Assembly (NCBI GenBank): GCA_001897295.1
Contig: MKSN01000001.1
Coordinates: 516,011-580,010, forward strand
Length of the DNA stretch: 64,000 nucleotides
From: Candidatus Saccharibacteria bacterium 49-20
GTDB lineage: Bacteria; Patescibacteriota; Saccharimonadia; Saccharimonadales; Saccharimonadaceae
Direction: 5' to 3'
Positions 4,496 through 55,161 of the stretch are shown here, piece by piece; positions within the stretch are counted from its first letter, which is position 1; each line of letters opens with the position of its first letter. The notes under the pieces are model-generated. The model had not been told where the DNA came from, searched no databases, and saw only the letters and a program-made list of their open reading frames with translations. The position numbers and the translations under genes are program-made.

Positions 4496-4628
4496 AAGAA
4501 ATCTCAAAGGCAGCCCTGAAACTATAAGGACGACTCTGCAGCCCGAGTTTTTAAGGGCGCTGGGGCCCCATAAAAACCCGGAGCGAAGCCAAGTCCGTTA
4601 GTTTACAGGGGTGAATTTGAGATTTCTT
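4496..4628. repeat. long nested intergenic palindrome E0
   Basis: Arms AAGAAATCTCAAA / TTTGAGATTTCTT; nested CCCTGAAACTATAAGGAC / GTCCGTTAGTTTACAGGG (imperfect) and CCGAGTTTTTA / TAAAAACCCGG. Confidence 0.85.
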
Positions 4629-26676: not shown

Positions 26677-26778
26677 CGCTCATATACTTCCGAAACTTGC
26701 TTCACGCAAAGAGCCCTAAGGGTCTCTACGCCTTAGAGCTCTTTGGTTACGCGAAAGTGTTCTTGAAGTATATGAGCG
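26677..26778 (+). repeat. intergenic long-hairpin element E1 (core on + strand)
   Basis: Outer arms CGCTCATATACTTC / GAAGTATATGAGCG; core CGAAACTTGCTTCACGCA...TAAGGGTCTCTACGCCTTA...TTGGTTACGCGAAAGTGTTCTT. Confidence 0.9.
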
Positions 26779-42603: not shown

Positions 42604-42731
42604 CCAGCAAAGTCTTTTCCATACATACTCACGAAACTTACTTCACGCAATAAACCTTAAGGGTCTCTACGCCTTAAGGTTTTTGGTTACGTGAAAGTGT
42701 TCTTTGAATAGTATGGAAAAGACTTTGCTGG
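42604..42731 (+). repeat. intergenic long-hairpin element E2 (core on + strand)
   Basis: 21-bp perfect arms CCAGCAAAGTCTTTTCCATAC / GTATGGAAAAGACTTTGCTGG; core CGAAACTTACTTCACGCA...TAAGGGTCTCTACGCCTTA...TTGGTTACGTGAAAGTGTTCTT. Confidence 0.92.
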
Positions 42732-42733
42732 GC

Positions 42734-43534
42734 CTAGATTGCTGTTCCGACTCGGTTAAAGACAATGAGTAGCACCACAAGGACGCTAATGGTGAAAAGA
42801 AGCGGCAACAATACGTCTGTCATACGCACCTTTGAGTGATGATAGAACGAGTCATAGACCTTGTATGCAAGGAAACTTACGAGTGTAATCGCGAGTGCAG
42901 CTTGAGGCAGCATAAGTGCAGGCACGACAGGCAGCGGGTACGCAATCGCCCAGTGGTACGAGACCCAGGTAATTTCAGCGATAATGAATCCCCATACGAG
43001 ACCCAGGAACAACCCGTGGGTTTCGTCGTCGTAGGTACTGAGGATGTGCCGTGCGGCCGAGTAGCCGATCAACCACGCGAAGAGCACTACAATTGAAACC
43101 GGCCAGTTGTACGAAATCGTGAACAAAGCAGAAATACCAAGGAAGACCGCAAGTCCCGCCTGAGTTGCCATAAAGGCCCTCTTCGAGCGCGGCTTAATAA
43201 ACAGCAGCCAGAAAATATAGCCGAGCGTCAAACCAATCATAAGGAATAGCTTCGTCGTCTCACCTATCGCCGACACGTTGATGGTGTACATGTGTAGCAC
43301 AATACTAATGCTGACAATAAAGTCGACCATGTTCGAGCGTAAGTTCGCCCACCAGAAGCGTGGACGCACCGCGAAGACGCGCCACTTACTGAGGATCACA
43401 AGAAGAATTGCAAACCACACGGCCTCGGTGTAACGGACAATCAGAAGTACCGCAACGGCGAGTGCAATATTCAATACAGTGTAAATCAATTCACTGAGGA
43501 AAGACCGTTTGCGGACGAGTTTAAGAAGCTCCAT
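42734..43534 (-). CDS. hypothetical polytopic membrane protein
   Basis: 266 aa, multiple TM helices. Confidence 0.75.
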   Translation of the reverse strand: MELLKLVRKRSFLSELIYTVLNIALAVAVLLIVRYTEAVWFAILLVILSKWRVFAVRPRFWWANLRSNMVDFIVSISIVLHMYTINVSAIGETTKLFLMIGLTLGYIFWLLFIKPRSKRAFMATQAGLAVFLGISALFTISYNWPVSIVVLFAWLIGYSAARHILSTYDDETHGLFLGLVWGFIIAEITWVSYHWAIAYPLPVVPALMLPQAALAITLVSFLAYKVYDSFYHHSKVRMTDVLLPLLFTISVLVVLLIVFNRVGTAI

Positions 43535-45244: not shown

Positions 45245-45398
45245 AAAACTTGTACTTATTATACGGCAAAATGCACCATTTTAAAGCCTACAAGGTGTTG
45301 TTGAAAATAACCTTATTATCATAAGCATTTTGCCCACAAGGGTCGGTGAACCGCTAGTGGCTTTTACTGCACCTCTCCCGTATAATGGGTAAAGTTCT

Positions 45399-46018: not shown

Positions 46019-46139
46019 AGCAAAAGATTCCGCAAGGTCTCAAAGAACACTTTCGCGTAACCAATAAAAATAAGGCGCAGAGGCCCTTATTTTTATATGC
46101 GTGAAGCAAGTTTCGTGAGACCTTGCGGACTCTTTTGCT
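46019..46139 (-). repeat. intergenic long-hairpin element E3 (core on - strand)
   Basis: Arms AGCAAAAGATTCCGCAAGGTCTCA / TGAGACCTTGCGGACTCTTTTGCT (23/24); minus-strand core CGAAACTTGCTTCACGCA...TAAGGGCCTCTGCGCCTTA...TTGGTTACGCGAAAGTGTTCTT. Confidence 0.92.
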
Positions 46140-54070: not shown

Positions 54071-54154
54071 ATTTAAGCATAAACATATTAAAAAGTCAAT
54101 CCCCTACGTTCACCCCCCCTTAATATTGACTTTTTATCAAGCTTATGCTAATGT
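54071..54154. promoter_or_regulatory. pair of near-identical divergent promoters
   Basis: +: TTGACT-17-TAATGT (54126-54154); -: TTGACT-17-TTAAAT (54099-54071); share TTGACTTTTTA..A.G.TTATGCT.AA. Confidence 0.75.
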
Positions 54155-54162
54155 AACTTCAA

Positions 54163-55161
54163 ATGACCGAACACCAAAATCGCGAAGTCCTTCACAATTC
54201 AGCCTCTCAAGAAACACAGCCAAAACTCTCGGCTCAAGAAAGGCTCGCTCAATCAGAACACTACGTACGCGCCATGTCGAGCGCACGCGTACTGCGTTCA
54301 AAAGAATTCGCACTCGCCCGTAACTCCAACCTATCTGGAGCACAAGCCTTTGGTGAAGCAGCCGCAGCGCTCGCTCAATCACCTGAAGAAATTGATGACT
54401 TTGACCGCTCCCTTCTTACGACGGTTAGTCGCCTCGGTACTTATATGGACGCACAGCGAGAAATCGACGACATCAATAATGTACGCGATTTCGAGAAGCA
54501 ACGCGGTAGTGATATCTCACAGGATGATATCGAGCGCCTCGCCGAGCTTAAACAAGAGTATATGCTCCCCTTCAACCACGCGGTTAAAGAATTGATTCTC
54601 GATAACCCTACCCTCAACGCCGGTGACCTTCGTGACAACCTCGCCGTCGCCTACACCGCCATTTACGGCCGCCACAACACTCTTCGCCCAGAACAGCCTA
54701 CCCAAGAAATCTCTCGACGCCCCGCCGAAGATGTCCTGTATAACATCGAAGCAGTTATTAATGGTATGCGTCATGAGGTTGCGACAGAAACGCTCTTTGC
54801 TGCGGCAGGCCTAAACTACGACTACAACGTAACCGACGAACAAGATAAGCACGGTCGCGATATCTACGCCGAAGTTGATGGAAAATGGGGTGGTATCGAT
54901 ATTAAAGCGAGCTTTGGTAAGGAGCGAAAGACCCACCAGCGCCAACGATTTTCAAAAGCCGTATGGACCGGCCTTACCGACGCCGACTTCCGTGGCCCCA
55001 AGGATGACATGTCAGATTCAGTCTCTATCTCATTTGCCACTGCAAAGAAATATGCACCTGCATTTATTGATCGTATCCGCAAGATGCGCTCGGGTGAACT
55101 TGGCCGTCAGCACCGTGCCGCACGAAACACTGGTTCACGCGCCCTTCAGTACCATTCATAA
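54163..55161 (+). CDS. hypothetical protein with PD-(D/E)XK-nuclease-like motif
   Basis: EVATETLFAAAGLNYDYNVTDEQDKHGRDIYAEVDGKWGGIDIKASFGKE; promoter with -10 8 nt before ATG. Confidence 0.8.
   Translation: MTEHQNREVLHNSASQETQPKLSAQERLAQSEHYVRAMSSARVLRSKEFALARNSNLSGAQAFGEAAAALAQSPEEIDDFDRSLLTTVSRLGTYMDAQREIDDINNVRDFEKQRGSDISQDDIERLAELKQEYMLPFNHAVKELILDNPTLNAGDLRDNLAVAYTAIYGRHNTLRPEQPTQEISRRPAEDVLYNIEAVINGMRHEVATETLFAAAGLNYDYNVTDEQDKHGRDIYAEVDGKWGGIDIKASFGKERKTHQRQRFSKAVWTGLTDADFRGPKDDMSDSVSISFATAKKYAPAFIDRIRKMRSGELGRQHRAARNTGSRALQYHS

Follow-up and report, generated by a model that had tools for sequence, protein, structure and literature searches.

We judge, with a probability of about 0.65, that the hairpin E2 is one copy of a palindromic DNA repeat that is dispersed in Saccharibacteria and apparently selfish, its arms being homogenised and its core flipped by template switching. 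E2 was found in a window of 64,000 nucleotides, the whole stretch of DNA analysed, which spans positions 516011-580010 of a single-contig genome of 904,897 bp (G000). The two arms of E2 are 21 nt each, 100% complementary and 86 nt apart (Table 1); by our own arithmetic, chance would place a perfect 21-bp pair within ~200 nt only ~3e-6 times per 64 kb. The outer edge of the element lies 2 nt from the stop codon of a minus-strand gene (42734-43534) and on the other side the prmC stop (42587) is 16 nt away. The hairpin is therefore real and sits beside a stop codon, as the initial annotation first claimed. The same annotation called it the largest and most perfect copy, which holds in part: its perfect arms are the longest among the elements of the window, but exact arms of up to 33 bp occur in relatives.

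Table 1. Palindromic elements of the family in the window (positions are those of the window).
Feature	Position	Strand	Remarks
E2, whole palindromic element	42604..42731	-	better-folding (R) strand is minus; model match 42621-42715 minus, 97.5 bits
E2, left locus-specific arm CCAGCAAAGTCTTTTCCATAC	42604..42624		21/21 complementary to right arm
E2, right locus-specific arm GTATGGAAAAGACTTTGCTGG	42711..42731		pairs with left arm
E2, conserved core with apical hairpin AAGGCGTAGAGACCCTT	42625..42710	-	common to 4 further close copies in the genome; covariation
E0, divergent family member, between ftsX and PcsB-like gene	4496..4628	+	core 4515-4608; 47 bits; 13-bp exact outer arms
E1, between greA and lysS	26677..26778	-	14-bp perfect arms
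E3, between lepB (signal peptidase I) and parB	46019..46139	+	24-nt arms, 96% paired

Close copies of the repeat were retrieved by BLAST from the window's genome (5) and from two further genomes of its genus, G002 (6) and G008 (2). Covariance models, the first built from 13 copies and the second from 64 matches, identified 12 copies in the window's genome and 18 in G002, with matches in 15 of the 17 genomes of the genus and copy numbers ranging from 0 to 18. Elements measure 95-185 bp. At the level of the family, 64 of the 295 genomes are carriers, and these belong to 19 of the 61 genera. In a sample of the phylum 10 of 380 genomes were matched, all from this same family, and none from other families. 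Moreover, a scan of 85,462 species with the core pattern returned carriers named Candidatus Saccharibacteria or bacterial bins; pattern matches in Alcanivorax, Luteimonas, Piscinibacter, Rhizobiales, Knoellia and Caulobacter had no model match and are attributed to chance. In these searches the repeat is confined to one family of Saccharibacteria. Viral carriage was checked in IMG/VR, which contained no match to the core pattern, and in Rfam no family reached its gathering score in the window, where only sub-threshold matches to long-hairpin miRNAs appeared. These data support the core family with locus-specific arms that had been proposed from the window. E0, which had been placed outside it, is a divergent member, being recovered by the first model with E=3e-11 and again by the second.

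The conserved part of the element is an imperfect hairpin of ~95 nt. Read along the better-folding strand (the R strand), a private arm is followed by a ACATCTGCAGCCCGAGT-like 5′ half (CACTTTCGCGTAACC in the E1-E3 subfamily), a variable stem, AAGGCGYMGRGRCCCTT, a second variable stem, a CCCGGCGCGAAGCCGT-like 3′ half and the other private arm. Compensatory change was seen in 22 of 33 pairs among 13 copies. Among 64 copies, 29 of the 33 pairs covary, with 573 doubly changed cells where shuffling gave 168 +/- 16, and although this alignment was fitted to the model and so leans towards structure, the effect is very large; when the registers are slid the covariation collapses. The bases of the internal loops are conserved across 19 genera. 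One column pair (26/97) is a conserved U-G (40 U-G, 14 C-G, 4 U-A), and another is a conserved A-C, its mirror image.

Strong covariation and the conserved U-G pair would be expected if the R strand were read as a structured noncoding RNA or a cis-regulator, as would the excess of G-T over A-C on that strand in arms outside the model columns (52:29, p=0.014). Inside the model, with the conserved G-T column pair left out, the totals are 76:63, and as a pointer to the strand of function the comparison is weak and partly contradictory. Furthermore, a folded single strand of DNA is equally expected to covary, the conserved A-C pair is the mirror case, the R strand is equally sense and antisense to genes, and the element belongs to no Rfam family. 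We therefore regard an RNA of this kind as very unlikely. The 52:29 excess does hint at selection on, or a bias for, one folded strand; purely strand-symmetric homogenisation does not predict it, and it counts against the template-switching reading.

We then turn to placement. As originally described, the remaining window copies lie close to minus-strand stop codons, at 17 nt for E1 (greA), 0 nt for E3 (parB) and 5 nt for E0 (ftsX). On their other sides, 12 nt separate E3 from the preceding stop codon of signal peptidase I, a plus-strand gene, 61 nt separate the end of E1 from the start of lysS, and the start of E0 coincides with the start codon of the next gene. These elements therefore fill compact intergenic gaps, and their proximity to stop codons partly reflects that filling. 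Intrinsic terminators, which combine a G+C-rich hairpin with a U-tract at transcript ends, can be rejected, as the initial annotation had suspected: the minus strand has no U-tract after the hairpin and copies occur within coding sequences. Hairpins of this element beside stop codons should accordingly not be annotated as terminators.

A broader possibility is that the element forms a 3′-end mRNA structure that stabilises the message of the upstream gene or terminates it in a factor-dependent way. Most window copies do lie 0-17 nt from a stop codon, and of 43 intergenic copies 13 are in convergent, 21 in co-directional and 9 in divergent gaps, where ~7-8, 23-25 and 10-12 respectively were expected from sampled gene gaps with genes called by a simple ORF rule. 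The convergent gaps are thus somewhat over-represented, but not significantly so (p = 0.06-0.18). Copies also sit between divergent promoters, orientation is random, and 15 elements in sister genera lie in frame within intact reading frames, several of them in housekeeping genes. The test named beforehand for refuting a 3′-end role was thus run, and yielded elements inside coding sequences together with no significant 3′-end bias. A terminator or 3′ stabiliser was accordingly rejected because of coding placement and orientation; as a general role the 3′-end structure is largely refuted, and we give it very little weight.

In the window's own genus all copies seen are intergenic, with no coding insertion. 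Host genes in the sister genera encode MnmA (four elements), LeuS (two), TopA (two), CysS, a dihydrouridine synthase (Dus), an ABC-F ATPase (a subclass we assigned from Pfam ABC matches), proteins of methyltransferase type (two genes with three elements between them) and a fusion of RNase HII with UPF0102. In the last of these (L034:1143-2174, minus strand) RNase HII and UPF0102 (YraN) share one frame with the element as linker, and insertion of the element may have fused the two genes. The MnmA site, which lies after GHYxRV and before a conserved KDQ[ST]YFL segment, was inspected more closely in 28 genomes of one genus. Here, the site is empty in 12 genomes, being 11 residues long in 11 of them and 15 in one. 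Six genomes bearing the core have 53-100 residues, always in frame, and one of these contains two elements in opposite orientation; different hairpins occupy the site in other genomes. Solved MnmA chains have ~6 residues where the query has 43. The contrast between empty and core-bearing sites indicates that the insert comprises the entire hairpin with its arms. Insertion of a palindrome thereby lengthens housekeeping proteins, MnmA among them, by tens of residues.

The orientation of the core is not fixed, in agreement with the initial annotation. Relative to the host gene, the R strand is sense in 8 coding insertions and antisense in 7. Moreover, the core is flipped between orthologous sites: between E3 and G002:231466 relative to parB, between G000:444582 and G002:341668, which lie between the same divergent genes of 388 and 354 aa, and at the MnmA site between L155 and L152/L153. 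E2 and its orthologue G002:234833 have the same orientation. These two share 167 of 248 positions over the region with a nearly identical core, yet their arms differ in sequence while pairing at 21/21 and 29/29 positions; the arms of E3 and its orthologous site are unrelated. Across the family the outer arms have a median of 21 and a maximum of 44 paired positions in the arm scan, comprising 1120 Watson-Crick, 97 G-T, 45 A-C and 78 other cells, and short arms (3-7 nt) are found in a few weaker matches.

One recent copying event is recorded in G002, where two copies, one at 332 and one at 341 kb, are alike over ~100 bp, including ~9 bp of inner arm and with one inserted base, and then switch abruptly to unrelated outer arms that are well paired at each site. 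The outer arms therefore belong to the site and not to the copied unit, and were either acquired at or soon after insertion or already present. A gradual build-up of arms following insertion is not readily reconciled with this pair, in which the arms are new and the core has hardly changed. Its arms could instead derive from insertion into a pre-existing palindrome or from an inverted duplication at insertion.

We propose that the ~95-nt core would be copied to new sites, probably by a non-autonomous route, and tolerated where DNA is permissive, namely intergenic gaps in this genus and, in sister genera, stretches of genes that encode the surface or a linker of a protein and accept the insert in frame. 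Folding of a single strand during replication would then allow the polymerase to switch template between the arms. By this route the arms would change in sequence and yet stay perfectly paired, and now and then the core would be inverted. According to PMC8604942, template switching at inverted repeats in yeast predicts both arm homogenisation and inversion of the spacer, and so matches both signatures of the element; it is a mutational mechanism and not an element, and in Saccharibacteria we put it forward as a proposal. From these patterns, mobility is probably a general property of the element and the element probably lacks a host function. Neither a transposase nor an autonomous copy came to light, nor a target-site duplication, for which the empty sites in MnmA have diverged too far in DNA sequence.

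It is also possible, if unlikely, that the core is a mobile hairpin tip which replaces or caps other hairpins and gains private paired arms at or soon after insertion, spreading by a transposase-free, hairpin-templated route. The unrelated hairpins 3′ of parB, 3′ of greA and in the MnmA loop would then be different tips on shared palindromic sites, largely on one replichore.

The distribution of copies along the chromosome is uneven. GC skew, computed from sampled stretches, places the G000 origin at 765-810 kb, a range that includes dnaA (794 kb), and the terminus at about 320-360 kb. All 12 G000 copies lie at 444-775 kb, on the replichore carrying parB, and are thus confined to a replichore rather than clustered at oriC. 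For G002, switches in skew occur near 0 and ~450 kb; all but one of its 18 copies fall within 82-416 kb, again on the replichore holding parB. Together 29 of 30 copies occupy one replichore, though the two genomes share some sites and are not fully independent. The template-switching reading offers no explanation for this confinement, which counts against it.

Confinement to one replichore speaks for a functional DNA site, the hairpin being bound in extruded or single-stranded form by a protein that helps to organise the chromosome arm or to replicate it, and a DNA-level role of this sort was allowed for in the initial annotation. The conservation of internal-loop bases across 19 genera also speaks for it, and such a role is supported as a possibility. 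Against this, the G000 and G002 copies show no orientation bias relative to replication, two genomes of the genus manage without any copy while others have up to 18, and elements are inserted within tRNA-modification and synthetase genes. Overall, we consider it improbable. A parS-like site, suggested by a TTACGTGAAA-like string in the core and the proximity of parB, was rejected, as the window contains no parS match with <=3 mismatches.

Lastly, we compared the element with known systems. REP/BIME sequences mobilised by a Y1 (RAYT) transposase are 20-40 bp with a tagged end (PMC3733652). They resemble the element in being dispersed imperfect palindromes, sometimes in adjacent inverted pairs, but the short size, tagged end and Y1 transposase are all missing here, the elements being 95-185 bp with private arms. 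A search of 18 genomes for PF01797 (Y1_Tnp) was positive only in G135 and G191; the domain was absent from 13/13 genus genomes, including G000, G002 and G008. A RAYT is thereby effectively refuted for the window's genus unless the enzyme is highly diverged, and the chance that E2 is such an element is close to nil. In MITEs the terminal inverted repeats are conserved, whereas here they are locus-specific, and in contrast to integron attC sites (paired R and L boxes with an integrase) the conserved bases are, by eye, internal and not terminal.

The closest parallel is with the palindromic elements best known from Rickettsia (RPE), which are palindromes of ~100-150 bp present in many copies and several families (Ogata 2000, reviewed in PMC10969869) and frequently inserted in frame into conserved genes that are otherwise unrelated, in a host-dependent bacterium with a reduced genome (PMC10969869). 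Similarly, the element is a dispersed palindrome in unrelated loci, with 12 copies of a 95-nt core plus arms in the window's genome, and is inserted in frame into conserved protein genes (MnmA, LeuS, CysS, TopA, Dus), here only in sister genera. RPE share the whole repeat, including the arms, which according to work cited in PMC6649704 lose identity with time, whereas the Saccharibacteria arms are private to each copy or orthologue and almost perfect. RPE also come from a different phylum, and the comparison drawn here is with their described features. The element is best called one that works like RPE yet is not a member of them, as the shared arms are missing. Coding palindromes of Nematomorpha mitochondria likewise have perfect, locus-specific arms evolving in concert, for which template switching was proposed (PMC6649704), but they have no conserved dispersed core, whereas the Saccharibacteria elements are insertions sharing one. 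A keyword search of open-access papers gave no earlier report of coding palindromic elements in Patescibacteria, to which such elements are now extended. Their private perfect arms and flipped cores provide a natural test system for template switching that maintains, and perhaps spreads, palindromes.

Several other palindromes and arrangements were observed. Adjacent pairs of elements ~25-45 bp apart occur at G004:C3:32463/32573, G008:C2:15835/15954, G156:C5:13925/14060, G178:C34:6856/6985 and G183:C8:60829/60956, all five with the minus copy first and the plus copy second, which recalls BIMEs. At the site 3′ of parB, which E3 occupies in the window, G005, G014 and G001 have Y-shaped palindromes (L078, L080, L082) with two apical hairpins and GCCCAACGC or GCCGAACGC between them, and G009 has yet another single-hairpin core. 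Other large hairpins are found 3′ of greA, the site of E1, in relatives (L096, L101, L102, L103), and L102 and L103, from related species, show arm changes with compensating substitutions. The window's genome also contains a much larger palindrome (L220, G000:C1:590834-591017; 33-bp exact arms, 184 bp span, ~-121 kcal/mol) whose core looks unrelated by eye. Within the window, an AT-rich 25-nt inverted repeat (54076-54149, 84% paired) directly precedes the gene at 54163-55161, and a quasi-palindrome at 45253-45391 occupies the divergent promoter region before lepB, with a TATAAT-like box in both arms.
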